A DNA stretch of 64,000 bases from Sulfobacillus benefaciens (lineage in GTDB: Bacteria > Bacillota > Sulfobacillia > Sulfobacillales > Sulfobacillaceae), in NCBI GenBank assembly GCA_003023725.1, contig PXYT01000003.1, positions 62,001 through 126,000 of the forward strand, given 5' to 3'. The translations under genes and the position numbers were made by a program. Positions 12,171 to 60,643 of the stretch are shown in pieces. The stretch's first letter is position 1; every line of letters begins with the position of its first letter. The notes beneath the pieces are model-generated. The model had not been told where the DNA came from. It searched no databases and saw only the letters and a program-made list of their open reading frames with translations.

Positions 12171-12197
12171 CCTATGGCGCGCGGAACAGTGAAAAAA

Positions 12198-12213: not shown

Positions 12214-12233
12214 GTTTTTTGAGATCGGACAAA

Positions 12234-12249
12234 TGGCATGAAATGTGCT
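12234..12249 (+). promoter_or_regulatory. Sigma-54 (-24/-12) promoter of the monooxygenase operon
   Basis: TGGCATGAAATGTGCT matches the sigma-54 consensus with GG (12235-12236) and GC (12247-12248) exactly ten bases apart. Transcription would start near 12260, about 150 bases before the hydroxylase gene. It nearly duplicates the divergent promoter at 11842-11857. Confidence 0.85.
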
Positions 12250-12409
12250 TGATCAAAAAGGCGGGGGGCGTGACAACGTTCTTCAACCGACGGAACATCG
12301 GTGTTTATTCGCGGCGAGATCAAACGTCTGCACCTCCGTATCCTATGCTTTCCGGTCCGGAGGATGTGCACGTAAGGTGAAAGACAGTGACAAAGGGGGT
12401 TAATCATTA

Positions 12410-14068: not shown

Positions 14069-14137
14069 AGACCTGAGCGCCCTGGGATAAATAAGTCCCT
14101 GGGGGATTATACGGGAAGGGCAGGGGGAGGGGACGAC

Positions 14138-15202: not shown

Positions 15203-15209
15203 TGAAGTG

Positions 15210-16612: not shown

Positions 16613-16699
16613 TTACTGTCTTGTCTGAACGACGTGGCGGATAAAGTGACACTGCCGAGGGATAGGGGAAAGACGGCACAGCGAAGGAGGGCGGTATGT

Positions 16700-33697: not shown

Positions 33698-36600
33698 TTA
33701 GAGAAATGAGTCGCTAAAGGCTGGGGACGAAAAGAACGCAGAGAGAACGGCGGTTTCACTGTTCCTATCAGGCAAGATGACGGCTTGTTCTACGAAAGTA
33801 CAAAGAGCATTAATGAGAGCCAGCTGTTCCGCATCCTTCGGTTTGTGAAACAACAACGAAGGGCTTCCGACCATAATGGCAATCCCTTGGGCCCGGGATA
33901 TGGCCACGTTGAGGCGATTCAGGCTATAAAGGAATTCCAGGCCATGAGGAACCTCTTCGGCACTGGAGGCTGTGGTGTTGTAAATGACAACCGGAGCTTC
34001 CTGTCCTTGAAATTTGTCCACTGTTCCGATGCGCACCGTGGACGGCAATACGGCATGCAGGCGGGTGATTTGGGCATTATACGGGGCTACCACCAGAATG
34101 TCGGAAGCCCCCAACGGGCGGGTTCGGCCTTGCTGGTCCGTCCAAAGCCGGCCGACAAGCTCATCGATAAGCCAGGCGGTGGCGTGAGCTTCTTCGGAGG
34201 AAGCCGTTCGGTTGGCTTGATGCCATAAGGGAAGATAATAGAGCCCTGAGCCGATGACCAAGCCTCTCCCACCCAAACGCTGGCGTGCGCAAGCCTCATG
34301 GGCAACCAGCTTATTGTCATAAGCGATGGCCGATATATACTCAGTGACGCGGGGATGCATCCTGCGAGTTACATTCAGGAAAATGCCAAAGCGTTCATCA
34401 ATGGTTTTGCACCCGTTCAAGAGATATTCCAGCACCGAAACATCGATGCCGGGAGGATGATGACCTTGACTAGGTTGGCGCAATTGTTGCGGATCTCCCA
34501 AGAGGATGACGGAATTGGCGGACTGCCCAGCGGCAAGAGCTTGAGCCAGGGAAATTTGACCGGCTTCGTCGATGACGAGGACATCTAAGGCTTGTTGCCA
34601 TTCTGGGCGTGCGAATAGCCAGGGAGTACCGGCGACGACGGGTATCCCTTGCTGAAACATTTTGGCGACTTGGGCGTTGCTACCCGTGAGCTGCACTTCC
34701 GGTGCGCCGACTCCCTGGTGCTCTTGCGCCTTTTGAACCGCTTTCAGAGGTGAATGGCTCTCCCGTGCCCGGGTTAGCACACTCTCAAGCAGATGACTCA
34801 CCACCTGATGACTGGGGGCGGTTATACCGACGGTCTTTCCCTTGGACACGAGGTCGACAACAATGTGGGAGGCCGTATAGCTTTTGCCGGAACCCGGCGG
34901 GCCCTGAATAGCCAGATATTGATGATCGAGACTCAGAGCCAGACGCCTCGCCGCCTGGACTGCATCCTCATTCTGTCGCCGCAAACTGGTTGGAAGCGGA
35001 TCCGTCGCGAGTCCCGGAGGTTCGCGCCACAACAGGCGCCGAAGGGCCCGAAAAGGGCCCGGGCGAGTATCCGGAAAACGGATAACTTCTTCTGCTATTC
35101 TTTGGAGGGCCAGTTTCAGGACTTGCGTGGGCACGGGCTTGCCGGGAATTAAAGCCTCGGGTCTCGCCTCTTGATTACGGGGAGGCTTGATCACAATTAG
35201 ATTGCGAAGAGGGTCAATGTGAACGACTGTGCCAGCGGATTTGCCGGTAGCCGGATCAAGGGGATTGTCACCCGCTTTGATTTTATGTTCTTGCTCCCGG
35301 TAGCGGTATTGATCAAATCCTTGCGGTGACTTACCCACAAATTCTAGATATCCGAGAGCCTCGGAATCTTCCATCAACTCCTCCGCGGTCATTTCGAGGT
35401 GGGAGAAATGTTTCCACCATTGAGATTTTTCTTCGCGCCGATGCCAGTTCAATAGATGAGCCATAACCCACAGAGGATATCCGGGGTCGGAGGGGTTTGG
35501 TTCCGCGATCAAATTTTGTGTCAATTGTGACGCCAGGGAATAGACGACGTCGGTTTCGGGTTCAATAGTGATATCATCGTCAGCACGGGATTCTTCGGCA
35601 TACGGCTCCCGCAACGGAACGACTTCTCGTTTTCGATCCAAAAGCCACTGGTGGAGGCGCCATGTCGACAGGCAGTCTGCCCGGTTATAGTCTTCGATTT
35701 GGCGAAGAAAATGGGAATCCGGGCGGTGTTTCCACTGGTCGTAGGCGACAACGCTGGCTCCGGCATTGGTAATTTCCTCGTTGCGGGTGGGCATATATAA
35801 TGGTTCAAGGGATTTGATGGAGTAAGATTCTTTGGATATCATCAGACTGTGACGGACGATTTGATAGAGGTCGACGAAAATATGACGGCGAAGCAAGTGA
35901 TCTACTTCCGCTTCCATGATTCCGTGTCGCCCCATTAAACGCTTCAAGGCAGTGGGTTCATAGGGAGCATAATGGTAAATATGCATGTCCGGATAGTCTT
36001 TTAATCGTTCCATCATGCGGGTGATAAAAGCGGAAAAACTGTTCCGCTCCTGAATCCGGTTATGAGCCCAGAGCGCATGAAAAATCGGCTCCTCCCCAAA
36101 CTTGGTTACTTCCGCCCAGCCGAACAAATATTCCAAACTGCCGCCTTCGGCCAGTGGATCCCCTTCGAAATCAAAATAGACATCCCCGGCCGAGGGTTCA
36201 GGCAAAAGATCCAGCCCGTCGCCAAACTTATAAGGCAAGAGTTGGTACGTGATCTCACCGGAGAGGCGCTCCTCAAGCTGCAGCTCGGCCTGTTTTTTCA
36301 GCCGAATCAAGGTGGGCTCGCCGATTCCCGATACCGAGAGGGGAGAAGGGTGACGGGCCAGATCGGTGAGTGTGTGGATTCCGGCGGATTTCAGTTTGTT
36401 GATTTGAGTATGTGTAATGTTGGCAATATAGCCAAGGTGATCATCGTCTCTTCTTCTTTTTTCACAATAAGACAGCCAGGAGCAGGTTGCACAAGCGCTT
36501 TGTAGTTCAGGATAAGTCGGTTCCTGGCTTGGTGCGCGCTCGATCCAATCCTTCAGCCGTTTTCCCGCCAATTGCACGTAGGCGGCAGCGTGGCTTTGTG

Positions 36601-37132
36601 GGTAGAAAAGGGTGCTCGCGTTTCCCAAAACCAATCGAATGGGGGCGGTAACACCCTGAATGTCCTCCAGCAGAAGACTGTAAAAGGTCGCCTGGACCAA
36701 TGCGGACACTCGGGCATGATGGGCTAATTTCACCTCGGTGACCTCATACAGAAAAGAACCTAAGCGTGAGGAGCCAGTCCGCTTTATCAGAAAGTCTGGT
36801 GTTCCCACCCAGTTGTTAATCCATAAGGTTGGTTGGTATAGAACAGGAATTCCTTGCATCAAGGCCTGCCGGCTTGACTCCCAGCGGTCCTTTAGAGATC
36901 CCCAAGGTTGGGCTTGCCAAATAGTGTGGTTTTGAGACTCCAGTTCCGTACGGTAGCTTTGTTCGAACTCGTTTCCTAACCGGGACAGCATGTTGCTTTG
37001 GGCATCGTCCTCCGAAGGAGCAGGGAGGGTTCCATTCAAGACTTGAAGATTGAGCCATGTCCGATACTCACATTCAATGTGATCGACAATATCGGACGGA
37101 GTAAGAATCCATTGATTGTGCACGTGTTGCAT
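33698..37132 (-). CDS. TM0106-type RecB-like nuclease fused to SF1 helicase
   Basis: A 1144-residue multi-domain protein. Residues 1-230 form a RecB-like PD-(D/E)XK nuclease (Asp113 in TPDFLIK; Glu130/Glu133 and Lys135 in YEVTEVK). Its four cysteines are spaced like the FeS-nuclease site of AddB/Dna2 (Cys21, then Cys214-x2-Cys217-x5-Cys223). A helix-hairpin-helix-like segment follows (SVSGIGEPTLIRLKK), then a YprB-type RNase H fold with DxE at 321-323 (YFDFEGDP). The last 400 residues are an SF1B helicase: Walker A GPPGSGKS at 744-751, DEAG at 855-858, GDPQQL, and VDKFQGQEA...NVAISRA near the end. Together they suggest a DNA end-processing or defence enzyme. AGGAGG precedes ATG 37132. It is transcribed alone. 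Confidence 0.9.
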   Translation of the reverse strand: MQHVHNQWILTPSDIVDHIECEYRTWLNLQVLNGTLPAPSEDDAQSNMLSRLGNEFEQSYRTELESQNHTIWQAQPWGSLKDRWESSRQALMQGIPVLYQPTLWINNWVGTPDFLIKRTGSSRLGSFLYEVTEVKLAHHARVSALVQATFYSLLLEDIQGVTAPIRLVLGNASTLFYPQSHAAAYVQLAGKRLKDWIERAPSQEPTYPELQSACATCSWLSYCEKRRRDDDHLGYIANITHTQINKLKSAGIHTLTDLARHPSPLSVSGIGEPTLIRLKKQAELQLEERLSGEITYQLLPYKFGDGLDLLPEPSAGDVYFDFEGDPLAEGGSLEYLFGWAEVTKFGEEPIFHALWAHNRIQERNSFSAFITRMMERLKDYPDMHIYHYAPYEPTALKRLMGRHGIMEAEVDHLLRRHIFVDLYQIVRHSLMISKESYSIKSLEPLYMPTRNEEITNAGASVVAYDQWKHRPDSHFLRQIEDYNRADCLSTWRLHQWLLDRKREVVPLREPYAEESRADDDITIEPETDVVYSLASQLTQNLIAEPNPSDPGYPLWVMAHLLNWHRREEKSQWWKHFSHLEMTAEELMEDSEALGYLEFVGKSPQGFDQYRYREQEHKIKAGDNPLDPATGKSAGTVVHIDPLRNLIVIKPPRNQEARPEALIPGKPVPTQVLKLALQRIAEEVIRFPDTRPGPFRALRRLLWREPPGLATDPLPTSLRRQNEDAVQAARRLALSLDHQYLAIQGPPGSGKSYTASHIVVDLVSKGKTVGITAPSHQVVSHLLESVLTRARESHSPLKAVQKAQEHQGVGAPEVQLTGSNAQVAKMFQQGIPVVAGTPWLFARPEWQQALDVLVIDEAGQISLAQALAAGQSANSVILLGDPQQLRQPSQGHHPPGIDVSVLEYLLNGCKTIDERFGIFLNVTRRMHPRVTEYISAIAYDNKLVAHEACARQRLGGRGLVIGSGLYYLPLWHQANRTASSEEAHATAWLIDELVGRLWTDQQGRTRPLGASDILVVAPYNAQITRLHAVLPSTVRIGTVDKFQGQEAPVVIYNTTASSAEEVPHGLEFLYSLNRLNVAISRAQGIAIMVGSPSLLFHKPKDAEQLALINALCTFVEQAVILPDRNSETAVLSAFFSSPAFSDSFL

Positions 37133-39808: not shown

Positions 39809-40963
39809 CTAGTACAGCTCACGCGATGTCCAGTCATCAAGACAAGCCTTGCGGGGATCCTGGAGTCCCATGTCACGGGCGGCTTCTGCCAAGTAGTCCA
39901 TGACAACGATGCCCTCCATATTCTTCTCGTCGAACATGGAGTGGCCTATCATATTCAAGGTTTGCAAATCCCGGGAGTAAATGCCGGCATCCCACCGAGT
40001 TTTTGTTAAGATCTGATAAATTACTTGCGAGGGAAGGCCGAGGGACTTGGACAGAACCCTGGCCATGCGTTCGGGATTTGTGCGCATGAGATCATGGGCT
40101 CTTAACTGGGCTTTTAGATACGCGTAAATTAGGGACGAATTGTTGGTCATCCATTCGTGAGAAGTGACGAGGCCCGTTAAATAGTCTTGGCCCCGGGATT
40201 CTTCCCAAATTACTTGTCCTGTTCCCAAGTGTTGCATGAGAGTGGGAAAGGGCTCCCACATGCATCCCGCGACGAGAGTTTGCCGAGTTATCAAATGCAT
40301 CCCGTCGGACATGGTGCAGTAATTGACTTGGATATTGGATACACCCATGTCTTTAACGAACCGATTGAGACGATGTTCCGCGCTCGAACGTGGAACGGTG
40401 ACCACCGTAAGATTGCGAGATTCAAAGGGTTTACTATTAGAGCGAGTGAGAACGGCAATACCCCGTCCCCCCTCGGATTTGCCGTCGAAAGCTAATAAGA
40501 CCAAACGAAATCTGTGCAGAAGTGTGCTTAATTTATATCCGACGGCGATAGGGTAATCGCCAAGATAAGCCAGATGGACGCGACCTTGAATCATACCCTC
40601 CAACAAATCCAAACCGCTGTCGGCATTTTCCCAAATGACGGAAACCGAATCCTTGCGGATGGCCGAAAGTTCCGTTTCCAATAGTCTTAATTCTTTAATG
40701 ATCAGCCCTGACCAGGTCTGCGCGGTATGAGTTTGAATGCCGATAACCACAGGAGTCACTTCGTGTTGGCCATGGCGTTGTCGCAAAACCCAGTCGCGCA
40801 GTTCTTCTTGATGGACGAATATGTCCCGACCTATTTTGTAGTAGGGTAATTGGCGATGGTGACGCCATCGGTCAAAAGTTGAACGGCTAATGTGCAAGCG
40901 GCTTAAGACCTCGGGAATTGTCAGGAGTTCCTTTGAGCCTTCTACTGAATTACCACCATCCAT
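39809..40963 (-). CDS. One-component regulator: excisionase-type HTH fused to SsuA/NMT1-like substrate-binding domain
   Basis: A 384-residue protein. Residues 13-62 are a MerR/excisionase-type helix-turn-helix (LLTIPEVLSRLHISRSTFDRWRHHRQLPYYKIGRDIFV, helix_turn_helix_17 pattern). Residues 70-384 resemble an ABC-importer substrate-binding protein of the NMT1/SsuA class: LEGMIQGRVHLAYLGDYPIAVGYK, TVVTVPRSSAEHRLNRFV, VAGCMWEPFPTLMQHLG and YLKAQLRAHDLMRTNPE. There is no signal peptide, so the domain acts in the cytosol as a ligand sensor. ATG 40963 has TAGGAGTGA upstream. The gene lies 171 bases downstream of the MFS gene, as the last gene of the AprA-like operon, and probably controls it. Excisionase-type HTHs fused to a different periplasmic-binding fold (PF12727) are known for molybdate; this NMT1 fusion I do not recall. 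Confidence 0.8.
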   Translation of the reverse strand: MDGGNSVEGSKELLTIPEVLSRLHISRSTFDRWRHHRQLPYYKIGRDIFVHQEELRDWVLRQRHGQHEVTPVVIGIQTHTAQTWSGLIIKELRLLETELSAIRKDSVSVIWENADSGLDLLEGMIQGRVHLAYLGDYPIAVGYKLSTLLHRFRLVLLAFDGKSEGGRGIAVLTRSNSKPFESRNLTVVTVPRSSAEHRLNRFVKDMGVSNIQVNYCTMSDGMHLITRQTLVAGCMWEPFPTLMQHLGTGQVIWEESRGQDYLTGLVTSHEWMTNNSSLIYAYLKAQLRAHDLMRTNPERMARVLSKSLGLPSQVIYQILTKTRWDAGIYSRDLQTLNMIGHSMFDEKNMEGIVVMDYLAEAARDMGLQDPRKACLDDWTSRELY

Positions 40964-41074: not shown

Positions 41075-41115
41075 CCTGTCTTCATGGTTCCACGAAAAGA
41101 CGCCATGAAGACAGG
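41075..41115. repeat. 13-bp perfect inverted repeat between the MFS and regulator genes
   Basis: CCTGTCTTCATGG (41075-41087) and CCATGAAGACAGG (41103-41115), loop 15 bases. It lies 20 bases downstream of the MFS stop. No T-run follows on either strand, so it may act as an attenuator, an mRNA-end stabiliser or an operator for the regulator gene rather than as a standard terminator. Confidence 0.65.
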
Positions 41116-41134: not shown

Positions 41135-42571
41135 TTAAACCTGGCCGTCTGTTACGGGTTCGAGTTCCATTTCCTGACTCTGACACCATTCTTCTTCAAT
41201 GGGTTTGCCAATGGGCTCCCAACGAATAAGAAGCGTGACTAAACCTCCTGCAAGAGGGGCTAACATCAGTAATTGAAATGTCGCGTTGAAACCGACCGCA
41301 CCCAGCAACAAAGGAAACGCAAAGGATCCGACGATACTGCCCACTCGCAGCATGCCTTGAGTCCAGCCGATTGCAGAACCCCGCAGCATGGTGGGAAAAG
41401 AAAGGGCGGCCATGGCCATGCCCTGAGGCCCGGGTCCGAGAGAATGGCCAAGCAAAAAGAGGGAGACAAACACGGCCGCTAGGGGCAACAACCCAAATCC
41501 ATGAGCGAGACCAATGATCGGGAGCGACACTCCGGCGATCGCGTAACCGACCAAAGCAAGTTTTCGGATCCCGGTTCGGTCGCAAATCCAAGCCTGGGAG
41601 ATGGATCCAATGACACCAAAGAAACTAAAGAACATTCCGCCCAATATCGCATACAAAAGACGATGACCAAACAGCATTTGAGCGATAATAGGCAAATAAA
41701 AGATTACTGCAAAGTACTCGATTGACTGGGTGAATGCGATAGAGGACGCCAAAAGTGTGCGCATTGCATAACGAGACGAAAAAATCTGCCTAAAGTTTCT
41801 GGTTGAAGAATGAGGGGTCATAGACAACTCACCGACTGAGAGGTCTTCGACCCTTTCAACGTTGAGGGATTTTTTGAGGATGTTTATGACATCCTGTGAC
41901 TTTCTTCTGTGAGCAGCCCACATGGGGCTTTCCTCCATGTATTTGTAGCGCAGCACCAGAATGATGAGGGCCGGAACGGCCCCGAAACCCACGGCATACC
42001 GCCAGAGATTGTTTCCTGCTCCCAACTCATAAACGATGTACGTGAACAGATAACCGGCGATGGCGGCAATGTACCAGTTTACATAGCTGAGATTTACAAA
42101 ACGGCCCCGGATTTTTGCCGGAGAGAATTCCGCAACAAAGCTTAATGCAACAGGAAAATCCAGTCCTGCACCCAGACCCATCATTAGACGGAAGAAGATG
42201 AGGATTGCCAAATTTGGTGCCAGCGACGCACCGACTGCCGATATCACAAAAAAATAAAGGTCCAGCAGAAACATCTTAAGACGTCCTATTTTATCGACAA
42301 AATGGCCTCCGACTAGAGCTCCGAATACGGCACTGAATGCCATGGCCGAGGAAATCAATCCCAATTCCCAACCGGCAAGATGCATTTCGTGTTGCAACTG
42401 AATAGTGCCGATGCTCAAACTGGAAAAGTCGTAAGCATCCACGAATACGCCGCCCAGGGCAATCAGGGATAGAACCAGACTGTTCTTTCCGTGCGCTTCA
42501 CCGGAATCGATTAAATTGATAACTGACATGGGATTGCGAGTGTCAATTTGATAAGACTGTTTGGAGTTCAT
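41135..42571 (-). CDS. MFS metabolite:H+ symporter
   Basis: A 478-residue, 12-helix transporter. The signature VDAYDFSSLSIGTIQL in helix 1, GGHFVDKIGRLKMFLLDLYFF after helix 2, RLMMGLGAGLDFPVALSFVAEFSPAKIRGRFVN and the loop before helix 7 place it in the sugar-porter/aromatic-acid symporter group, which import organic substrates. AAGGGTGA precedes ATG 42571. It starts 29 bases after the ferredoxin gene in the same operon, so it probably brings in the substrate of the AprA-like enzyme. Confidence 0.85.
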   Translation of the reverse strand: MNSKQSYQIDTRNPMSVINLIDSGEAHGKNSLVLSLIALGGVFVDAYDFSSLSIGTIQLQHEMHLAGWELGLISSAMAFSAVFGALVGGHFVDKIGRLKMFLLDLYFFVISAVGASLAPNLAILIFFRLMMGLGAGLDFPVALSFVAEFSPAKIRGRFVNLSYVNWYIAAIAGYLFTYIVYELGAGNNLWRYAVGFGAVPALIILVLRYKYMEESPMWAAHRRKSQDVINILKKSLNVERVEDLSVGELSMTPHSSTRNFRQIFSSRYAMRTLLASSIAFTQSIEYFAVIFYLPIIAQMLFGHRLLYAILGGMFFSFFGVIGSISQAWICDRTGIRKLALVGYAIAGVSLPIIGLAHGFGLLPLAAVFVSLFLLGHSLGPGPQGMAMAALSFPTMLRGSAIGWTQGMLRVGSIVGSFAFPLLLGAVGFNATFQLLMLAPLAGGLVTLLIRWEPIGKPIEEEWCQSQEMELEPVTDGQV

Positions 42572-42600: not shown

Positions 42601-42822
42601 TTATCGCACCAGATATGGGATCTCCACTGTTATGGCGTCAACCGGGCAATCCACTTCGCACGGAAGACAATACCAACATTCGTTGTATTTCATGTACGCC
42701 TTTTTCTCTTTGTCCATCGCTAAAATTCCCATGGGACACACCTGAACGCAAATATCGCAACCGATGCATTTGTCTCGGTCGACAATCACATTGGGCGAGG
42801 TTCTTTTGGTAACGGATGTCAT
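42601..42822 (-). CDS. AprB-like 2[4Fe-4S] ferredoxin
   Basis: A 73-residue ferredoxin with two cluster motifs, CIGCDICVQVCP and CWYCLPCEVDCP, joined by a short loop. CWYCxxCxxxCP is the form found in the AprB subunit of adenylylsulfate reductase and its relatives, but the longer AprB C-terminal tail is absent. GGGAGGATT precedes ATG 42822. It lies 23 bases after the flavoprotein gene and is inferred to be its electron acceptor. Confidence 0.9.
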   Translation of the reverse strand: MTSVTKRTSPNVIVDRDKCIGCDICVQVCPMGILAMDKEKKAYMKYNECWYCLPCEVDCPVDAITVEIPYLVR

Positions 42823-42845: not shown

Positions 42846-44564
42846 CTATTTGTTAACTGGCTGTGCCGGTGCCGACGATTTGTCCGTAATAATGGGATCG
42901 GGAACGGGAATTTGACCTACCATCATAGTGCCTTCGGGCGTGCGGCCAACAATCGTTCGATACAAGCCGTTTACATCATCGCGGGTGGGATAGTCGAGGC
43001 GATAATGGAGGAATCCCCACCGACTTTCCTTTCGGTAGAGCGAAGACATGGTTGACATCTCGGCACAGTCCAAAATGAAAGGGACTTCCAGAGTTCTGCC
43101 TAATTCATGGGGATCATGGGCTGAAAGCCGGGGAATGTCCTGCATCCGAATGTCGCGGAAACGTTCCATGCCAATGTTCATCATGGTTCCGGACTTGGGG
43201 GGCGTGGAATACTGGCTAAAGGTTCTCCGTATCTTATATTCCACTTCTTCGTGATGGTACCCGTCGGAATTATGCAATGGGCGGTACACCCGTTCATATT
43301 CCTGGTCAATTTGAGCGGGATCAGGTTCGCTGGAAGACGCCCCTTTGGCATACAGCGCGGCGCTTTCGCCAGCCAGTTTGCCAATAACAAAGGCGCCTAA
43401 GAGGTATTGATGCGGTACTGAAGCCACGTCGCCTGCAGCGTACAGACCCTCAAGAGTGGTCCGGGCCTGTTCGTCAACCAAAATACCCGATGCACTATGG
43501 CCGCTGCACAGGCTTGGCTCGCTGAGTGACATTTCCAACATACGATGGCGATAATTTGTGCCGCGGTTAGCGTGAAATCGATCGCGACTGGGGCGTTCGT
43601 TCGAATGGAGCACGTGTTCGATAAACGCAATATCTTTTTCAGGCAAGTGGTCCAGTTTGAGGAATGCCGGCCATTGCCCACGTTGTTTAGCCTGGTACAT
43701 ATGCATAATTAGTTCGCCGCTCCAATAGTCATTGCCGGTTAGGCGTTCGCCGTCGGGATCTGCCGTGTAGCCTCCATAAGGGCCGGCAACATAGGCGCAG
43801 GCCGGACCATTGTAGTCTTTCAGCAAGGGAACAATCATCACCGCTTCCAGACTGGTTAGCTGAGCCCCGGCGCGATACGCCATGGCATAGCCGTCCCCGG
43901 CATTAGTCGGATTTTCGTAAGTGCCGTAGAGATAACCCGTAGCGGGAAGTCCTAGTCTGCCAGCGGCGCCGGTGGTCAAAATCACTGCGCTGGCTTTGAT
44001 TACGACAAATTCACCGGTAAACACATTGAGACCTGTCACGCCAACAACCCGGTTATTACGCGTCAAGATAGAAGTGGCCATGACTCGGTTGATGGTCGTA
44101 ATGTGTCGGGACTTCACCTTCTTATAAAGAATCCGTTTCAAATCGGATCCTTCCGGCATGGGAACCACGTACCGTCCTTCCATATGAACCTTGTGGACGA
44201 TAAAATCGCCTCGATCATCTTTGGAAAACTTCACACCCCAGCTATCCAGTTCCTTGACCATGGAGTACCCTTCCCGGGCGAAGTACAAAACCGTTCGTTG
44301 GTCCAAAATGCCGTCATTGGCCCGCGTAATTTCCCAGACATATTCTTCCGGTGTGGCTTTTCCGGGAATGACGGCATTATTGAGGCCGTCCATTCCCATG
44401 GCTATGGCTCCACTCCTGCGAATGTGTGCCTTTTCCAAGATGGTCACGTTCAAACCGGGAAATCTTTCCTTGGCTTTTATGGCTGCCATGGTTCCGGCGC
44501 TGCCGCCGCCAATTATCAGAACATCGGTTTCGTAGTTCCGTCGTAAACCCATAACATCGGACAT
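42846..44564 (-). CDS. AprA-like FAD-dependent oxidoreductase (fumarate reductase/APS reductase superfamily)
   Basis: A 572-residue flavoprotein. The FAD motif is VLIIGGGSAGTMAAIKAKE, followed by ILEKAHIRRSGAIAMGMDGLNNAV, which is characteristic of AprA-type proteins (EKAxxxRSGAxAMG), and TGAAGRLGLPATGYLYGTYENPTNAGDGYAMAYRAGA. EGLYAAGDVAS closes the FAD site. At about 570 residues it is shorter than dissimilatory AprA (about 620-660), and no sat or qmo genes are near. A role in sulfate reduction or sulfite oxidation is therefore not assured. The enzyme probably oxidises or reduces a small sulfur or carboxylate compound with the ferredoxin as partner. ATG 44564 (or GTG 44567) follows GGGGAGGTC. 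First gene of the four-gene operon. Confidence 0.85.
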   Translation of the reverse strand: MSDVMGLRRNYETDVLIIGGGSAGTMAAIKAKERFPGLNVTILEKAHIRRSGAIAMGMDGLNNAVIPGKATPEEYVWEITRANDGILDQRTVLYFAREGYSMVKELDSWGVKFSKDDRGDFIVHKVHMEGRYVVPMPEGSDLKRILYKKVKSRHITTINRVMATSILTRNNRVVGVTGLNVFTGEFVVIKASAVILTTGAAGRLGLPATGYLYGTYENPTNAGDGYAMAYRAGAQLTSLEAVMIVPLLKDYNGPACAYVAGPYGGYTADPDGERLTGNDYWSGELIMHMYQAKQRGQWPAFLKLDHLPEKDIAFIEHVLHSNERPSRDRFHANRGTNYRHRMLEMSLSEPSLCSGHSASGILVDEQARTTLEGLYAAGDVASVPHQYLLGAFVIGKLAGESAALYAKGASSSEPDPAQIDQEYERVYRPLHNSDGYHHEEVEYKIRRTFSQYSTPPKSGTMMNIGMERFRDIRMQDIPRLSAHDPHELGRTLEVPFILDCAEMSTMSSLYRKESRWGFLHYRLDYPTRDDVNGLYRTIVGRTPEGTMMVGQIPVPDPIITDKSSAPAQPVNK

Positions 44565-44662
44565 CACTGTGACCTCCCCGAATCATGAAATATCCAATCA
44601 TCACCATCAAACATGACATGAAACGATATTAAGTTCCCACAAATCTTACAAATAACAAGTCA

Positions 44663-44691
44663 AATATGTCATGAACATGACGCGTTATCAA
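44663..44691 (-). promoter_or_regulatory. Promoter with palindromic operator in its spacer, upstream of the AprA-like operon
   Basis: On the minus strand TTGATA (-35, 44691-44686) and CATATT (-10, 44668-44663) are exactly 17 bases apart. The spacer contains the palindrome GTCATG-TT-CATGAC (44681-44668). Further CATGAC half-sites lie at 44612-44617 and 44692-44697. The arrangement suggests repression or MerR-like spacer control by the HTH/substrate-binding regulator encoded at the end of this operon. Confidence 0.6.
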
Positions 44692-44697
44692 CATGAC

Positions 44698-45893
44698 CAA
44701 GAAATAATGATGATAAATGACGATTTGGATGGGAAGGTTTAGGATGTGGACGCTTATGTCAGTCCTTACACATCGATGTGAGACGATGAGCCGCATGGAG
44801 TATCCGTTATAGAAACCTCCGCAATTTCCCAGCTGTCATGAAGTCAGCCGGCATCCCAGAGAATCACAGCATAGTAAAGAATACCGTCGTTGCGGTGCTC
44901 CATTGCGATCGCCGAGTGTGAATTCCGAATGACAAGGCGAGAAGGTATCTTTTCATTCGGAATTCTAGAGGATAAAGTGTGACCGTTCACCGCAACCGCG
45001 GGGTTGTTGGCCAAGGCGGCGGCTGGCATTCTCCCCAGATTTACAGGAATTTGCGTAGCGTGATAGGGAGCGTGCTGGACTTCCACTGCACGTCGCCAGA
45101 GATTGTGCAATGCCCACCATGAGCGCGAACTCGTGGCGATGGAGGAAAAATACCTACCAGACGTGGGTTCGCGCCTTAATAACTCATCTTCAGACGATCA
45201 GGAAACCGGTGGCCACCGCGGTCGCGGCGCGGTCCATGAAGGGCGCGTGAAGAAAAGGAAAACGCGGAACCTATGAGAAAGTCCGGACGTTGATCGCGGC
45301 GGGGTGCTCGGGTTTATGCGGGACTTCCGGGTGGGATAGACGAACAGTCAGGCTGGGAAGGATGGGCGGATGATCAAAATCCACAAAAGATTTCCGGAAT
45401 TTTTCGCAACCTGCCCGTCGCCGAAATCGTTTGCTCTCCGCAATGATATTTCGACCTTCAAGAGGCAAGGATTGCTGGTCTTTGAATTCAAAAGGTCTTG
45501 CAGGACGAACACTTAATGCCAGAGCCTCCAAAATTCCGTCCTGCAATGATTCGTACACCAAATCATCGAAGGTGGGGTATAGTGTATCCCTCCTTGATGA
45601 TCGTGGCCCCCCACTAAATAGTTACTCCTTGGTCAGGACATTGTACGAGGCTAGAATGTTCAAGGGGTGGCTGATGCCGACAGCATGAAGAACCAAGGGA
45701 ACACCGAGATCCTGTAGTTTGATTCTTGCGGCAATTCAAAGGACGCGGATTGGAATTTGTCATTGTGCTGGCAGATTGTTCGCAGCGGCAACCCTTGATG
45801 ATATGTGACAAAGATTAGATTATGCCCAGGACACTTCCTGACCTTTGTCAAATATGGCACTGATATTGTGGGCAGCGATCCCTTTTCCAAAAC
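44698..45893. other. 1.2-kb region without a recognisable gene
   Basis: Several frames of 60-96 codons lack ribosome sites and known domains. The longest (45271-45561, minus strand; FEFKDQQSLPLEGRNIIAESKRFRRR) looks protein-like but is isolated by stops, so a decayed gene is possible. Another GTCATG half-site lies at 44835-44840. No terminator was found. Confidence 0.35.
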
Positions 45894-46982
45894 TTATGAC
45901 AGGGACCCAAGGACCTGTGAGGTTTCCTTGATGAGAACAGCCATTAAGTCACCGGCTCCGTACTCCCGGCTGAGGGGGGAACCTTGTCCGGCCCAAAGCG
46001 ACATGAAATCGGGTCGGGAATTTTTGGCGGCCCAGTTTCGTATCGGTGTGGTAAGAGCGTTTTGAACGGGATAAGGAGGAATCGACCCTTGGTACTGTTT
46101 CATCGAAGTGATGAAGGTGTTTTGAATGATTCGGGCCGGCTTTCCGGAAAATGCTGTTGTCAACACATTTTTTTGCCGGTGACTGGCGAGTACCGCCTCC
46201 TTGTATTGGGAATGAGCTCCACACTCCCTGGCGGGAATAAAGGCGGTCCCCATTTGAACTCCAGCGGCTCCTAGCGCCAAAGCGGCGACAATGCCACGAC
46301 CATCCATGATTCCCCCCGAGGCGATGACTGGCACTTTGATTTCATCGGCAATCTGGGGCACCAGAGCCACAAGTCCTACAAGAGATGAATCGTCAGAATC
46401 GAGAAAGGAACCTCGGTGTCCTCCGGCTTCGGAACCTTGCGCAATGACAGCGTCAACACCTGCCTTTTCCAGTTCAAATGCTTCCGCCACCGTGGTGGCG
46501 GTTCCCATAACGCGGATATTTCGGGCTTTTAGCGTCTCGATATCAGGGGCCGCTGGACAACCGAAGGTAAAGCTAAAGATGGGGACCTGCTCCTCAATAA
46601 TGACCGCCATCTGTTCCGAAAAGTCAAATGGTGTGTGATCTAGAGACAACTGCGAAATCTCCTCGCCGATTTCCGGGGGAATGTCCTTCAGTGATCTCAG
46701 GTACTGCTTCATCGAGGTGATGGCCTCTCTGTTGACATCGTGAAGATCTCTCTGAGGAATAAAGAGATTGATGGCAAAGGGATTTTTCGTGAGTTGGCGA
46801 ATTTTCCGGATGGCCACGCGAATCGATTGTGGAGACATGTATCCGGCCCCAAAAGAACCGAGTCCTCCAGCGTCGGAAACAGCGGCCACCAATTCCGGGG
46901 TGGAAAGCCCGCCTGCCATAGGAGCCTGAATAATGGGGTAACGGATTCCGAGTATACGCGTAATAACGGTATCATTCCACAT
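45894..46982 (-). CDS. Nitronate monooxygenase (2-nitropropane dioxygenase family)
   Basis: A 362-residue FMN enzyme with a TIM-barrel fold. RYPIIQAPMAGGLSTPELVAAVSDAGGLGSFGAG is the N-terminal FMN signature; VDAVIAQGSEAGGHRG carries the catalytic histidine and IASGGIMDGRGIVAALALGAAGVQMGTAF the phosphate-binding region. It oxidises propionate-3-nitronate and other nitroalkane anions. GAGGAGGAAATATT precedes ATG 46982. It is monocistronic. The 14-mer GGGATAAGGGGGTA about 220 bases upstream is shared with the formamidase upstream region, hinting at common control of nitrogen-releasing enzymes. Confidence 0.92.
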   Translation of the reverse strand: MWNDTVITRILGIRYPIIQAPMAGGLSTPELVAAVSDAGGLGSFGAGYMSPQSIRVAIRKIRQLTKNPFAINLFIPQRDLHDVNREAITSMKQYLRSLKDIPPEIGEEISQLSLDHTPFDFSEQMAVIIEEQVPIFSFTFGCPAAPDIETLKARNIRVMGTATTVAEAFELEKAGVDAVIAQGSEAGGHRGSFLDSDDSSLVGLVALVPQIADEIKVPVIASGGIMDGRGIVAALALGAAGVQMGTAFIPARECGAHSQYKEAVLASHRQKNVLTTAFSGKPARIIQNTFITSMKQYQGSIPPYPVQNALTTPIRNWAAKNSRPDFMSLWAGQGSPLSREYGAGDLMAVLIKETSQVLGSLS

Positions 46983-53730: not shown

Positions 53731-54995
53731 AACGCGTCAACCGGTTTGATCCGTACTCATATGTTCCGGTGCCCCGGGAACCAGGTGTAGCAGGAGTCCT
53801 CTTGGTCCAAACTTTTTCAAGGGGATCGCTTATCTCTTCCACCTCCGCCCACATCCACACACTTTACTGTGAACTCCGGTTGAAACCAGTGTAGTGAAGG
53901 AAGATGGGCATCAGAAAAGACCAATACAAGACGTGGTGGCAAAAACACGGGTTCCCCTTCCCCCAGGCAAGCGACAGACGAACTAGGCCTGTCCTACGCT
54001 CGCTTATCCTCGCTCACATAGCGGGTGGTTTGTTCCTTGACTCCAACCACACTGATGCTAATCCCAGGACCGGGAGGTCCTTATTAATGAAAGTATCGGA
54101 ATGCATGCATAATCCTTTTCAACCGCTAGCAACCACAAATTTGGGATCTGTTCAAATCACTCTTGTTCCGGTGTGAAACTTGTTCTGATGCGCTTCTTCT
54201 CACACCACCATCAATTTTTGTGTTTTTATGATTCTGCATCGGAATACCTGCTCTGGCATGGACGTTTTTCACTTCGGACCGGATGTAGAGCCATTGCCCG
54301 GGAACAAGAGGAGATCGGCTAGCCCAATTTTTGATTTGTCTTCGTGATGCTATTCCTCCCCGTAAGATGCCAGAGATTTCAGCCTCGTCCACGACTAAGA
54401 TGTTGTCCTCTACTGGATGCGCTAATTGTGGGCTCGGTTTACCGTTGTGTTTTACCGATATTGGTACCGAGTGGGCGAATTCCTTTCCGAATGATTTGTG
54501 CTGTTATTAAAAGGAAACTTGGATCACAACCGGGTCAGTTGTGCACCAACATGTCTCTGCATATCTTTGGGTCCAATCCTCAGACACATGGCAAACCGCC
54601 AAAAGGAGACGATCCTTTTGAATCACGGCAATACTAGTGTGTGGAGAGGGCGGATGGCGAAAACGCCGGGAAAACGCCGAGCCTCCACAACTTCCGGGGA
54701 TTAACCCTCAAAAAGCGGTAGTTCCGGGGAGGGGCACGAGAAAGGAACCAAGGGCCCACTGCCGGGGGCCGAAATGCTGTCAAAAAACCGGTGCGGTTCT
54801 CTGTTTGGTATCCGTGGGGTGCCGACGCAGGTTCCTTCGAGCCCTTTGAATCGGACTTAAGGGTCCTTATGACCCGACCCGAGGGTTGGTAAGCTGAACC
54901 CAAGGCCGCTGTAACAATGCTGAAGCCCGCCTAACCATGAGAAGTGTACTGGCGGAAGGGGATGAGGCGGCCGTTTGGGACAAGGGGATGAGAGT
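53731..54995. other. 1.25-kb region without a recognisable gene
   Basis: Short frames of 66-97 codons occur on both strands (for example 54126-54392 minus and 53904-54176 plus). None has a ribosome site with a recognisable domain. The promoter of the molybdoenzyme operon should lie here, but I could not place it with confidence. Confidence 0.35.
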
Positions 54996-56069
54996 GTGAA
55001 GCCTGAACAAAAACCCGTGGCGCGGCGTCGCATTTTGCGCCAAATGGCCATCGTGGCCATCAGTGTGTCCGCGGCGGGAACCCTCCTTCGGTCTAAGGCT
55101 CAAGCCAAATCGCTGCAGGCGCTTGCCGCTGCGAGCCGAAAGCAATGGAAGGGGGAAAGCCGCGCACAGGTGCAGTATTACAATACCAAGCCCAGGTGGG
55201 CAAGCTGGACCGTACCTCAGTTAAATGTCTCGGATGGATGGTCCGAACCATCCGGGTGGATGTCTAAAATTGAGAATTCACGAAATCTACCCTATATTCA
55301 CGATAATTTTAATCGGTTGTTGCCAGTGACTAAGTTACCTCATCATTGGGTAATGGTGATTGATCTGCGCCGGTGTATCGGATGCCAGGCGTGTGTTGTC
55401 AGTTGCAAAAGTGAGAACAATGTGCCGGTCGGCGTTTATCGAACTTGGGTGCAAGTAGTGGAGACCGGAACCATGGTCCCCGATTCCCAGGGGTCCGTGG
55501 TGACGGATCAAGGCACATTCGAACCGAATGTCAAGCGTTTTAGTCTCCCCCGCCTGTGCAATCACTGTGATGCCCCGCCGTGTGTGGAAGTCTGCCCCGT
55601 CAAGGCGACTTTTAAGCGGGAAGATGGTCTGGTTTTAATTGATTATCCCAAGTGTCTGGGGTGCGGCTACTGCATCAATGCCTGTCCGTATGACGCCCGA
55701 TTCTTCAACCCGATTCAGCAAACCGCGGACAAATGCACGTTTTGTGTTCAGCGTCTCGACCGGGGGCTCTTGCCGGCTTGTGTGACGTCTTGCGTGGGAA
55801 GGGCTCGGATATTCGGGGATCTTAATGATCCCAACAGCGAAGTGTCCCGGTTGATTGCGTCCTATCCGACGACACATTTGAAGACGACTCTGGGAACAAA
55901 ACCTCAGGTATTCTATATCGATCTCGATGGGGTTCTGGCCGAGGATGGAGCCAATACCTTTAATACCCTCTATCCCTATGCCGTGGGAACAAACACGGAG
56001 GAATACGACGATTTGACGGGCAAGGTACTGCTCCAGACACCGACCGGAGGAGAAAGGGGGACTCCGTAA
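54996..56069 (+). CDS. Tat-exported four-cluster [4Fe-4S] subunit of a molybdoenzyme (TtrB/PsrB-like)
   Basis: The start is taken as GTG 54996 (AAGGGG eight bases ahead); TTG 54975 is a close alternative. The N-terminus has a twin-arginine stretch (ARRRILRQMAIVAISVSAAGTLL), so this subunit appears to be exported with its own Tat signal. Sixteen cysteines form four cluster motifs: CIGCQACVVSCK, CNHCDAPPCVEVCP, CLGCGYCINACP and CTFCVQRLDRGLLPACVTSC. This is the DmsB/TtrB/PsrB layout that passes electrons between the quinone-linked anchor and the catalytic subunit. First gene of a five-gene operon. Confidence 0.92.
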   Translation: MKPEQKPVARRRILRQMAIVAISVSAAGTLLRSKAQAKSLQALAAASRKQWKGESRAQVQYYNTKPRWASWTVPQLNVSDGWSEPSGWMSKIENSRNLPYIHDNFNRLLPVTKLPHHWVMVIDLRRCIGCQACVVSCKSENNVPVGVYRTWVQVVETGTMVPDSQGSVVTDQGTFEPNVKRFSLPRLCNHCDAPPCVEVCPVKATFKREDGLVLIDYPKCLGCGYCINACPYDARFFNPIQQTADKCTFCVQRLDRGLLPACVTSCVGRARIFGDLNDPNSEVSRLIASYPTTHLKTTLGTKPQVFYIDLDGVLAEDGANTFNTLYPYAVGTNTEEYDDLTGKVLLQTPTGGERGTP

Positions 56070-57320
56070 GTGCTGCAAGGATCTTTGGTTCATTCAGGTC
56101 TGGAAAATGTCTATTGGGGCTTAATGATTGTCACGTATCCCTATATTTCGGGACTGGTGGCGGGGTCGTTTGTGGTGTCTTCGCTCAGCCATGTTTTCCA
56201 TCAAAAACTGTTCGACGACCTGGCACCATTGGCGGTATTGGTCAGTTTTGCCCTGCTTTTGGCTGCCCCTTTAACGGTGTTGGGGGACGCGAGGCAACCG
56301 ATGAATTTTTGGGAACTGATGGCACGGGGGCACTGGCCGTATTCCCCTATTGCGTTCTTCATTTTGATTTGGATGTCCTACATCGTGTTGATGCTGTTTG
56401 AATTATACTTTGCGTTTCGCGCACAAAATGTGCGTCGGCTGATTCGCAGCCAAGGACAATCGCGGCTGTACCGATTCCTGACTCTGGGCAGCCGGAACGC
56501 CAGTCTGGCGGGAGAAACGCGCGACAAGCGGGTGTTGATGGTTCTTTCGGCAATAGGTATTTTAATGGCTTTTCTGTTTCACGGATATATCGGATTTATT
56601 TTTGGATCCACCAAGGCGCGGCCCTTGTGGGCGACTCCGTTGATGCCGGTGCTGTTCATTGTGTCGGCTATGGTTTCCGGTATTGCGCTGATGTGGGTGG
56701 TCAACGTCTTGGTTATGCGGTTTTACCACCGTCCGGTCAATCGTGCCCTCGCCAATGGTCTGTTGACTTATCTGGTGTTGTTTGTTCTGCTGGATCTTTA
56801 CATGGATGCCGTAGACTTTCTGACCAGTGCCATTCCGGCTTACACCCAAGGTCCAGTGTCCCAAGGGTTTCAGCGGATATTGATGTATGGACCCAATAGC
56901 TGGGTCTACTTTGGTTTGCAACTCGGGGTGGGACTCGGCATACCGCTGATCGGATGGATCATTCCTCAAGTCCGCCGGTCACTGGCTGGAGGAGCGTTAA
57001 TGAGTCTGGCGGTGTTGGTGGGAGTGTTCGCGATGCGCTGGGATGTTGTAATTGCCGGCCAGGAACAATCGAAAATTTCCAGCAATGTGGTGACGGTCGC
57101 CATACCCTGGACCGGTTTTGATTCGATTCAAACAGTGATCGGAGTCTTCGCGGTGGCATTTGTGGTGTTCATGGGATTGGCATGGGTCTTCCCGTGGCAG
57201 TCGTGGAACCGAATTCCGGCCGCAGAAGACCAGGAGGCACGGGAAACCTCGGCCCGTCAACAAGCGGCCCAGGGCATTCCCGGGACCGCCACAAGCGAAG
57301 GAGGCCATGTGGTGTCATGA
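56070..57320 (+). CDS. NrfD/PsrC-type quinol-binding membrane anchor
   Basis: A 416-residue protein with eight to ten membrane helices, starting at GTG 56070 directly after the FeS subunit's stop codon (AGAAAGGGGG upstream). The first helices (YPYISGLVAGSFVVSSLSHVF, FWELMARGHWPYSPIAFFILIWMSYIVLML) fit the NrfD/PsrC family, which exchanges electrons with the quinone pool. No heme histidine pattern is evident, as expected for the family. Its stop overlaps the ATG of the catalytic subunit gene. Confidence 0.9.
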   Translation: MLQGSLVHSGLENVYWGLMIVTYPYISGLVAGSFVVSSLSHVFHQKLFDDLAPLAVLVSFALLLAAPLTVLGDARQPMNFWELMARGHWPYSPIAFFILIWMSYIVLMLFELYFAFRAQNVRRLIRSQGQSRLYRFLTLGSRNASLAGETRDKRVLMVLSAIGILMAFLFHGYIGFIFGSTKARPLWATPLMPVLFIVSAMVSGIALMWVVNVLVMRFYHRPVNRALANGLLTYLVLFVLLDLYMDAVDFLTSAIPAYTQGPVSQGFQRILMYGPNSWVYFGLQLGVGLGIPLIGWIIPQVRRSLAGGALMSLAVLVGVFAMRWDVVIAGQEQSKISSNVVTVAIPWTGFDSIQTVIGVFAVAFVVFMGLAWVFPWQSWNRIPAAEDQEARETSARQQAAQGIPGTATSEGGHVVS

Positions 57321-60300
57321 GTGATGACGAAGAGAGTCGCAAAAATGGGGTTAGCCGGCGCCGGTTCTTGCAGGGCAGCGTCATGGGCGGTGCCGGAATT
57401 CTTGTAAGCGGATGGGGTTTGTCACCGTGGATCGGGAATGTGTTTCACCGTCGGGGCACATTTGTCTACCCCGACCGTCCGCCGACCTGGGCCGGCGTGG
57501 AAACAAAATACAGCGTGTGCAAACAGTGTGGCAGCGATTGCGGCATTGAGGCACATATCTTCAACGGTATCTTACAAAAGCTGGACGGGAATCCCTATCA
57601 TCCGGCGTCCACGGAGCCCCATGCGCCGTACGCCACGGCAGTCGCGACGGCTAATGTCTGGCCAGCCCCGCATTCGCTCTGCCCAAGAGGTCAGGCCGGA
57701 CGGCAAACAGTGTATGACCCTTACCGTATCACCGTACCCTTAAAACGCACGGGGCCCCGGGGATCCGGTCAGTGGGAGGCAATTTCTTGGAATCGCTTGA
57801 TTTCTGAAGTCGTATCAGGGGGCGTATTGTTCCACGGTGTCCCGGGAGAAAGTACTCGCGTCGTGACAGGATTCGGCGGATTGTACAACAACGGCAAAAA
57901 TCAGAGCGTGCCGATTGATCCCGCTCACCCGGACATGGGTCCCAAGACCAATGGTCTCATGATCTATATCGGGGAAGCCGAAGCGGGACAAAGCCAGTTT
58001 ATCGCACGGTTTGCGAATGCTTTTGGCACGGTCAACGTTCAGGGTAACGGGCAAATTTGCAACAATAACGTGGGGATATCCTACAATTTGTCGACGGCCG
58101 GTCAGGCCGGGGAATTCCGTCCGGATATTTTGAATGCGGAATATGTGCTGTGGTTTGGGCTCAATGCCCTGGAAGCCAATTTTCCCATGCAGGCGATTGG
58201 TCGTAAAGTCGTTGAAGCGGTGAGTTCCGGATCACTCAGTTATCATATGGTGGATGTCCGTTCCGGCAATGCCTTCATTCATGCTAGCAATCAAACCTGG
58301 GTGCGCCCTGGCGGAGACGGCGCCCTGGCGATGGGGATGATTCGGTGGATATTGGAGAATCAGCGCTATAACGCACCGTATCTGGGTATTCCGCACGCCA
58401 AGGCGGCGTCGGCCCAGGGAGAACCTAATTTTACCAATGCCAGTTGGCTGGTGGTGAGCGATCCCACCAATCCCAATAACCGGGCGTTTCTCACCGCGGC
58501 TCAAGCGGGTCTGGTTTCCGCATCCGATGCCCAGGCGTCCGATGCGGTGGTTCTGGACGCGGCCACGGGGAAGCCGGCTGTGGCCAACCGTGTGTCTCAA
58601 GGGAGACTGTGGCCGAAGGCTGCCATGGACCTCAGCGAGGTAAAGGTGGCGGGCATTTCCTGCCGGACCGCGTTGCAAATGTTGGCAGAGGAGGCCATGC
58701 GATTTGATCTGTCGCAGTATGCCGTCATGGCCGGCACCGATCAACGGGAGATTGTGCATTTGGCCGAGGAGTTCACCAGTCATGGTCGCAAGGCCGTTGT
58801 GGACTTTTTCCGGGGTGCGGTGATGCATACCAACGGCGTGTATACGGGAAGGGCTCTCATGACACTGAATATGTTAATTGGCAATATTGACTGGATGGGA
58901 GGTTATATGGTGGGCGGGGGCGGAGCCGATATTCTGGGCACGAACCCGGGGCAACCCTATAATTTGAAGAAGTGGCCGAATATGAATACCCAAGTACCGG
59001 CCGGTGTTACGGTTTCCCGCAACGGCACCGCCTACGAGACGACGTCTTACTATCAGCATAAAGTGGCGCAAAAGCAGTCCCCCTATCCGGCGGAAAGACC
59101 GTGGTTTCCGTTCAGTGGCGGTTTGTGGGAGGAAATGTTTGCCGGTATTTATGAAGGCTATCCCTACGCCTGTTCTATTTTGGTTCAGCACATCGCCAAT
59201 CCCGCATGGAGCGCACCGGGAATAGGAGGAGCGGACGACGACAACTTGCCGTGGGTGAAGTTGATTAAAGACACTGCCAAGATTCCCTTGTTTATCGCCA
59301 TCGACACGCAGATCGCAGAAAGCTCCCGCTATGCCGATTACATCATTCCGGACACGACCTATTTGGAAGGCTGGGGATTTCCTTCTGTCCGTCCGGTTAT
59401 CCCTACCAAGGTAACCGGAATTCGTCATCCCGTAATCGAGCCGTTGACTCAGAAGACCCCGGCAGGAGACCCGATAAGTATGGAACAGTTTTTCATTGAT
59501 GTCGCCCGGACGATTAAATTGCCGGGATTTGGTTCCAATGCCTATGTCGAAGGAGGCTCACTGAATTCCCGCGAGGATTATTACCTGAAGATGGCAGCCA
59601 ACGTGGCGTGGGACAGCTCGTTTCTTTCCCGCTCGGGTAATCAGTTTGTGTCTGGGGGGCCGGTTCCGAATGCCCAAAGTGCCCAGGAGTTGGCCAGTAT
59701 TCAGACCTTGAGGGCAGATCATTCCAACGCTCTCACCACGGCTCAGTGGGCGAAAGTGGCCTATGTTGTGGCACGGGGGGGCCGTTTCGAAGATTATAAC
59801 GTGGCCTATTTGCCGAACGCCGAAACCAATAGCCGGCTCAAGAATTTGATGACGGGGCAGGTGGTGCGCACGGGGGTTGAAGGTTGGGCCAAAGCGCCGA
59901 ACCAACTCAGTCCCCAGGATTTGCTGGCGACTTATCAAAATATGGTTCCGGCCGGAAGTGGCTTGTCCCCGTCTAATCCATCCTGGGTGACGCATCAACT
60001 CGGGACTTCCGATGCTCTGCAGATCTACAATCCCGATCAGGCTTTAGCTGTGAATGCTCTGACTGGTGCCCATTTTGTGGGAACCGGAACGTATCAGCCT
60101 CCTCAGAACATGTTGGGACAGCCGCTGAGGGATCTGGACCCGTCTTCGGAATTTCCGTTTATCCTCAGTACGCGGAAAGAGACCGTCCAAAGCAAGGCCT
60201 GGACGATTGCCGATCCCTGGCTTTTGGAGATGTTGCCAGAATCCTTTATCGACATGAATCCGGTTGATGCCAGCCGCTTGGGGCTTCATGCCGGGGATGA

Positions 60301-60610
60301 GGTCCGTGTATCCTCGAGGACTTACAGCAAAGGATTGACAGGGCGTCTGCGTTTGTTGCCGGGCGTGCGTCCTGGCGTGATTTCGTTTCCGCACAGCTAT
60401 GGACATTGGTATTACGGTTCCGGGGCTTGGACGATTAACGGACAGCGCTATCAAGGAGATCCAAGCCGGAATGCGCCGGTACGGCTCAATGCGGTGATGC
60501 GGCTCGACCCCACTTTGGCGGCACCGGACGGATGGACGATTGCCATGGAAGACCCCATTGGGGGCGGGTGTGCGTATTTTGAAACTCCTGTGCGGGTGGA
60601 GAAGGTCTAG
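57317..60610 (+). CDS. Molybdopterin oxidoreductase catalytic subunit (TtrA/SreA-like)
   Basis: ATG 57317 overlaps the previous stop (ATGA) and gives 1097 residues. A Tat signal opens the protein (SRRRFLQGSVMGGAGILVSGW, twin Arg at 14-15). The proximal [4Fe-4S] site is Cys68-x2-Cys71-x3-Cys75 and Cys122 (SVCKQCGSDCG ... LCPRGQ). GNGQICNNNVGIS may hold the cysteine ligand of Mo/W. The C-terminal cap RLGLHAGDEVRVSSRTYSKGLTGRL is the MGD-binding domain. Size and operon order fit tetrathionate (TtrA) or sulfur/polysulfide (SreA/PsrA) reductases; arsenate or selenate respiration is less likely. The enzyme would work on the outer face of the membrane, coupled to the NrfD anchor. Confidence 0.88.
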   Translation: MSDDEESRKNGVSRRRFLQGSVMGGAGILVSGWGLSPWIGNVFHRRGTFVYPDRPPTWAGVETKYSVCKQCGSDCGIEAHIFNGILQKLDGNPYHPASTEPHAPYATAVATANVWPAPHSLCPRGQAGRQTVYDPYRITVPLKRTGPRGSGQWEAISWNRLISEVVSGGVLFHGVPGESTRVVTGFGGLYNNGKNQSVPIDPAHPDMGPKTNGLMIYIGEAEAGQSQFIARFANAFGTVNVQGNGQICNNNVGISYNLSTAGQAGEFRPDILNAEYVLWFGLNALEANFPMQAIGRKVVEAVSSGSLSYHMVDVRSGNAFIHASNQTWVRPGGDGALAMGMIRWILENQRYNAPYLGIPHAKAASAQGEPNFTNASWLVVSDPTNPNNRAFLTAAQAGLVSASDAQASDAVVLDAATGKPAVANRVSQGRLWPKAAMDLSEVKVAGISCRTALQMLAEEAMRFDLSQYAVMAGTDQREIVHLAEEFTSHGRKAVVDFFRGAVMHTNGVYTGRALMTLNMLIGNIDWMGGYMVGGGGADILGTNPGQPYNLKKWPNMNTQVPAGVTVSRNGTAYETTSYYQHKVAQKQSPYPAERPWFPFSGGLWEEMFAGIYEGYPYACSILVQHIANPAWSAPGIGGADDDNLPWVKLIKDTAKIPLFIAIDTQIAESSRYADYIIPDTTYLEGWGFPSVRPVIPTKVTGIRHPVIEPLTQKTPAGDPISMEQFFIDVARTIKLPGFGSNAYVEGGSLNSREDYYLKMAANVAWDSSFLSRSGNQFVSGGPVPNAQSAQELASIQTLRADHSNALTTAQWAKVAYVVARGGRFEDYNVAYLPNAETNSRLKNLMTGQVVRTGVEGWAKAPNQLSPQDLLATYQNMVPAGSGLSPSNPSWVTHQLGTSDALQIYNPDQALAVNALTGAHFVGTGTYQPPQNMLGQPLRDLDPSSEFPFILSTRKETVQSKAWTIADPWLLEMLPESFIDMNPVDASRLGLHAGDEVRVSSRTYSKGLTGRLRLLPGVRPGVISFPHSYGHWYYGSGAWTINGQRYQGDPSRNAPVRLNAVMRLDPTLAAPDGWTIAMEDPIGGGCAYFETPVRVEKV

Positions 60611-60643
60611 GTTGTGGAGTTTGAACCGGGGAGGAGATATATC

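Follow-up and report, generated by a model that had tools for sequence, protein, structure and literature searches.

The protein encoded at 39809–40963 of the window (the whole stretch of DNA that was analyzed, 64,000 nucleotides of a Sulfobacillus benefaciens contig) joins an excisionase-type helix-turn-helix (HTH) to a substrate-binding domain of the SsuA type. We propose, with a probability of roughly two-thirds, that it is a one-component cytosolic regulator created by gene fusion, which would sense an imported organosulfur anion and control the adjoining flavoprotein-ferredoxin-MFS operon. The gene and its two domains are as follows.

39809–40963, minus strand: HTH_17-SsuA-like fusion regulator, 384 aa (open reading frame, domain matches, and ortholog in L009/L008)
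40775–40927, minus strand: HTH_17 (excisionase/MerR-like) DNA-binding domain, residues 13–63 (Pfam PF12728, E 1.3e-9)
39860–40756, minus strand: SsuA-like ligand domain, approximately residues 70–368 (profile and family matches)

The open reading frame starts with ATG and has exactly the extent described in the first-pass annotation, which had placed an excisionase-type HTH at residues 13–62. In the Pfam scan, the HTH_17 match agreed with this placement, passed the cut-off (38.6 bits vs. 27), and was the best of its family in the whole genome. The ligand domain matched the NCBIfam SsuA_fam model (TIGR01728) with an E value of 1.7e-10 and 40.6 bits, under the curated cut-off of 163.5. The domain alone found Escherichia coli SsuA (2x26) at 1e-4 in a single-sequence search, and a profile built from the domain and its relatives matched 2x26 at E 1.8e-17, TauA (6ssy) at 3e-14, and Xanthomonas citri SsuA (3e4r) at 2e-13, with homology spanning both lobes of the SsuA/NMT1-like fold. 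All of the ligand-domain motifs that had been quoted earlier (e.g., GDYPIAVGY and WEPFPTLMQH) were found in the protein. Thus, of the NMT1/SsuA fold that had been assigned, the SsuA side is borne out by family and structure matches, but Pfam NMT1 and NMT1_2 gave no score on the fusion regulator itself and scored only on its relatives.

The protein is predicted to be cytosolic. An in-frame TAG lies two codons upstream of the ATG, which is preceded by a Shine-Dalgarno-like AGGAG; because of this stop, neither an N-terminal extension nor a signal peptide is possible. No signal peptide or hydrophobic stretch was found in the 384-aa sequence, and hydrophobicity averaged over 19 residues peaks at 1.1, compared with 2.0–2.4 in the secreted relatives described below, in agreement with the absence of a signal peptide that had been claimed. 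We therefore do not regard the protein as a transport SsuA (an equivalent of TIGR01728), since it has no signal peptide and its 40.6 bits stand against a cut-off of 163.5; nor is an ABC permease or ATPase gene adjacent to it.

The fusion gene is the last of four genes in the order flavoprotein, ferredoxin, MFS, and HTH-SsuA fusion, and a further gene is linked to them.

42846–44567, minus strand: PRK08275-family FAD flavoprotein, fumarate reductase/succinate dehydrogenase-like (NCBIfam NF006131 passed its cut-off with 797.7 bits)
42601–42822, minus strand: small 2x[4Fe-4S] ferredoxin, 73 aa (90% identical in the sister genome)
41135–42571, minus strand: MFS transporter, nearest the aromatic acid:H+ symporter subfamily by family matches, occupying the place of the relatives' ABC importer genes
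45894–46982, minus strand: enzyme resembling nitronate monooxygenase, a naming made by eye (conserved synteny and 74% identity in the sister genome)

The flavoprotein is a relative of the alpha subunit of APS reductase, and a ferredoxin stands beside it in all related clusters examined; the ferredoxin gene of the window had been absent from the first list of open reading frames because it is short. Whether the linked nitronate monooxygenase-like gene belongs to the system is uncertain. Elsewhere in the window, a soluble methane/phenol/alkene-type diiron monooxygenase cluster, here in a Bacillota genome, occupies positions 5129–18037; its two hydroxylase subunits and reductase are accompanied by a divergent GroEL-like chaperonin and by genes for both a sigma-54 factor and a sigma-54 activator. 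Positions 33698–37132 encode a 1144-aa protein with an RNase H-like nuclease domain and a helicase-like AAA module. At 54975–61240 stands a gene group for a molybdopterin oxidoreductase, which includes Fe-S and membrane subunits as well as a chaperone-like gene; the enzyme is possibly a sulfur-compound or arsenic oxidoreductase, the confirmed part being the molybdopterin-binding domain only.

The source of the ligand domain was apparent from its relatives. Among 398 sampled Bacillota genomes, only two strong matches were found outside its own genome (G259 L040 and G488 L039), each of approximately 400 aa and with 33–34% identity over the whole domain. Both are secreted lipoproteins without an HTH, and their genes are directly preceded by those of a flavoprotein homolog and a small ferredoxin and are followed by an ABC permease gene; the window flavoprotein is 58% identical to the G259 homolog and 43% to that of G488. 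In the G259 cluster, the ABC ATPase is joined to phosphosulfolactate synthase, ComA (E 1.6e-87; L040 11040–12629), an unusual combination of a transporter ATPase with a sulfite-using enzyme. No close secreted relative of the ligand domain was found in its own genome. From the gene order compared with that of the relatives, it therefore appears that the MFS gene replaces the ABC importer genes, that the HTH replaces the signal peptide, and that the binding protein is now cytosolic. In the tree, the ligand domain groups with the Bacillota lipoproteins with a support of 99/99. These results indicated that the fusion regulator can be read as a derivative of the secreted lipoprotein of an ABC importer. 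The stem branch to the fused form carries 1.79 changes per site, and because it is so long, the ligand specificity may have shifted.

On these grounds, we propose the following course. The sulfonate-type binding protein of an ABC importer would have exchanged its lipoprotein signal for an excisionase-type HTH, while the importer genes disappeared and an MFS gene took their place in the cluster. The MFS transporter would import an organosulfur anion (a sulfonate or sulfate ester, or a breakdown product), on which the binding domain would close inside the cell. Closure would alter the grip of the HTH, which probably binds as a dimer, on the DNA in front of the flavoprotein-ferredoxin-MFS operon, and perhaps also in front of the regulator's own gene. 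In this way, the neighboring sulfur-compound genes are probably switched on or off by the sensor. The architecture, the cytosolic topology at the level of sequence, the conservation of pocket and operon, and the descent from a secreted relative are shown; DNA binding, the ligand, dimerization, and the sign of regulation are what we infer.

The residues of the putative pocket bear on the ligand. We assigned the pocket positions by profile alignment and compared their numbering with that of the SsuA and TauA papers, which name the sulfonate contacts of SsuA (PMC3839906) and of TauA (PMC6906117). Q77, G117, G135, S194, and W236 of the fusion regulator align with Q36, G68, G86, S141, and W185 of X. 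citri SsuA and have Q30, G61, G79, T132, and W176 as their counterparts in TauA. All five sulfonate-contacting residues are kept in the fusion regulator and in the secreted Bacillota relatives; at the level of sequence, the cleft is therefore intact and not broken, a broken cleft having been named as a possible objection. AlphaFold2 models from a single sequence and from three sequences both had a pLDDT of 38 and were set aside. We assigned the putative ligand to sulfur compounds from the pocket residues, from the closest relatives with solved structures, and from the sulfur genes that recur in related clusters (ComA, TauE/SafE, YeiH, and arylsulfatase). Asp205 of TauA contacts the amine of taurine (PMC6906117); the fusion regulator has Gly264 at this place, as does SsuA, and is thus probably not a taurine sensor.

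An alternative is that the protein is the same kind of regulator with a ligand other than an organosulfur anion, its pocket having been retuned to an aromatic or aliphatic acid, to nitrate, or to a product such as sulfite or sulfate after the importer gave way to an MFS transporter of the aromatic-acid type. The best score of the MFS protein, which is against the aromatic acid:H+ symport subfamily, the long branch to the fused form, and the several anions bound across the SsuA-like group would all fit such a change. However, the five contact residues are unchanged, the closest solved structures bind sulfonates, and the sulfur genes named above recur in the related clusters; we thus consider this alternative unlikely and retain an organosulfur anion as the favored ligand.

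An ortholog of the fusion regulator (74–75% identity) was found, in two pieces, in a second, independently assembled MAG, WH4.bin11 (JAKACM01), which is the sister genome referred to here.

L009 8001–8354: first part of the WH4 ortholog, comprising the HTH and the first 54 residues of the ligand domain
L008 1455–2222: second part of the WH4 ortholog, the remaining ligand domain
L009 8369–9012 and L008 1–1454: insertion-element stretches in WH4, at contig ends without overlap

An IS200/IS605-type element divides the gene, its Y1 transposase lying on one contig and TnpB on the other. Adjoining the insertion site (L008 1455–1500), eight residues (RVHLAYLG) are missing in frame. The MFS frame, adjacent to the split regulator gene, is also broken in WH4, so the system is dispensable in this genome, or else the split and broken parts are assembly errors. 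Because the source genome is a 155-contig draft, the fusion itself might be suspected of being an artefact of assembly or frame. Nevertheless, it is a single uninterrupted open reading frame, and the independent MAG has an HTH running into 54 residues of the ligand domain with conserved neighbors (flavoprotein, ferredoxin, MFS, and nitronate monooxygenase-like); an artefact is thereby refuted for all practical purposes, and the fusion is real.

Between the two orthologs, dN/dS was 0.23 in the HTH region and 0.05 over most of the ligand domain, a value shared by the flavoprotein and the MFS transporter (0.05). These ratios point to strong purifying selection on the ligand domain and indicate that both domains were maintained, at least until the insertion in WH4. 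Thus, the first-pass claim of an excisionase-type HTH and an SsuA-like domain in one cytosolic protein now has two independent assemblies behind it, with both domains under purifying selection. The same values bear on the idea that the binding domain is ligand-free and a mere scaffold for dimerization or protein contact, DNA binding being constitutive or controlled by a partner. The accelerated divergence from the secreted form would fit such a scaffold, but the ligand domain is as constrained as the neighboring enzyme and every contact residue is kept; the parallel LysR case described below likewise keeps Q, G, G, and S. We consider the scaffold improbable and the sensor much the better account.

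Among 154 genomes of the class, the fusion was present only in the source genome and WH4, and a contig scan across 84,980 species, in which close relatives alone are detectable, returned only WH4. No other HTH_17 fusion was found in 72,556 plasmids, and a viral-contig scan for further sequences gave no relatives.

We then considered where the regulator might bind; two candidate sites were listed.

44668–44681, no strand: perfect palindrome GTCATGAACATGAC (14 bp), candidate operator, within the spacer of a weak promoter-like site
41075–41115, no strand: inverted repeat with 13-nt arms and a 15-nt loop between the MFS and regulator genes (the sister genome has a similar dyad)

The palindrome stands in front of the flavoprotein operon, within the region 44600–44700 that had been suggested as the target, and a related sequence, GTTATCAACATGAC, follows at 44684–44697. 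The sister genome preserves the candidate operator only in part; TTCATGAACGTGAC, which is similar to it, is found in WH4 ahead of the regulator gene. The inverted repeat before the regulator gene, whose arms are similar, is present in both genomes and is a possible operator or attenuator. Because perfect 6-bp dyads are common, the case for the palindrome as operator stays weak, and none of these candidates stands out statistically. Repeats of AACATGAC that precede the flavoprotein gene were rejected, being neither kept in the sister genome nor rare in the window.

The plasmid search revealed a second kind of fusion, a 678-aa Leptolyngbya protein in which a LysR HTH and a LysR sensor domain are followed by a C-terminal NMT1/SsuA-like domain.

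L052 4023–6059, L059 8001–10001, and L060 8001–10016: LysR + SsuA-like fusions on Leptolyngbya and Pseudanabaena plasmids (WP_198808570.1, WP_281009784.1, and WP_126391629.1)

The Leptolyngbya gene is divergent from a flavoprotein-ferredoxin-HEAT-Mrp operon (Mrp/NBP35) and adjoins an ABC importer that has kept a secreted binding protein of its own. The arrangement recurs on two Pseudanabaena plasmids, where YeiH and TauE/SafE (sulfite exporter) genes follow. The LysR part of these proteins resembles YeiE and selenium-associated LysR proteins. The fused SsuA-like domain keeps Q, G, G, and S of the pocket. In the tree, the LysR-fused domains group with cyanobacterial and proteobacterial importer proteins (100/99), and a single origin of all fused proteins was rejected in a constrained tree (p-AU 3e-8). 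The cyanobacterial proteins thus share with the fusion regulator an SsuA-like domain on a transcription factor and the same adjacent flavoprotein-ferredoxin pair, but they differ in carrying LysR DNA-binding and sensor domains first, in their separate origin, and in the ABC importer with a secreted protein that is kept beside them. From two independent conversions beside the same enzyme pair, we argue that the binding domain would sense the substrate of that pathway. The parallel also bears on whether the fusion regulator is a transcription factor at all, or whether its HTH mediates contacts between proteins, or whether it acts inside the cell as a carrier or buffer of ligand for the flavoprotein. 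HTH_17 is small and found in several settings, as such roles would allow; however, it is a DNA-binding family, the gene sits inside the operon that it would control, and the parallel proteins have a bona fide LysR DNA-binding domain, which together make these roles very improbable and favor a transcriptional regulator.

Regulators built on a substrate-binding fold form an old and common class. In regulators that combine an excisionase-type HTH with PF12727 and in the LacI family, the binding-protein fold serves as a cytosolic effector domain; these differ from the fusion regulator in using other substrate-binding families. The regulatory domain of NrtC, of the cyanobacterial nitrate ABC transporter, is NrtA-like. 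It has a putative nitrate-binding site (PMC6603209) and, like the fusion regulator, is a cytosolic domain thought to sense substrate, but it is joined to an ATPase and controls transport, not transcription. SgrR/DsvR, an HTH with a C-terminal SBP_bac_5 domain, is a cytosolic transcription factor that likely senses an intracellular metabolite (PMC13060122). Its N-terminal HTH and C-terminal domain of substrate-binding-protein fold resemble the arrangement found here, whereas the HTH type, SBP_bac_5 in place of SsuA/NMT1, and an unrelated regulon set it apart; neither the SgrR HTH nor SBP_bac_5 appeared in our Pfam scan, so that the likeness to SgrR-type regulators is one of working only. SgrR/DsvR and NrtC are closer precedents for the principle than the PF12727 regulators, which had been named as the closest analogue. 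SsuA of E. coli and X. citri and TauA of E. coli share the ligand-domain family and the sulfonate-contacting residues but are exported transport proteins without a DNA-binding domain. In the literature covered, with most subscription journals outside that coverage, we found no description of an HTH_17-SsuA or LysR-SsuA fusion. The principle is known from SgrR and NrtC, and the HTH-SsuA combination and its recurrence look new.

Taken together, the two cases raise the prospect, which we judge evenly balanced, that organosulfur importers repeatedly donate their secreted binding protein as a cytosolic transcription sensor, having done so at least twice, in Bacillota and in cyanobacteria, with DNA-binding domains that are unrelated, and that in the lineage of the window the sensor outlived the importer, which was replaced by an MFS transporter. 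As a modular part, the ligand domain could find use in biosensors for sulfonates, and the ligand of the sensor would name the substrate of an uncharacterized flavoprotein-ferredoxin organosulfur pathway. The step from an exported binding protein to a cytosolic sensor is rarely visible elsewhere; here it is repeated, within the same pathway. Because a secreted counterpart occupies the same operon position, the fusion occurred twice with different heads, and the pocket is unchanged, the conversion is directly testable. If repeated donation is true, the paired secreted and cytosolic forms would constitute a natural experiment in the change of a transport protein into a regulator.
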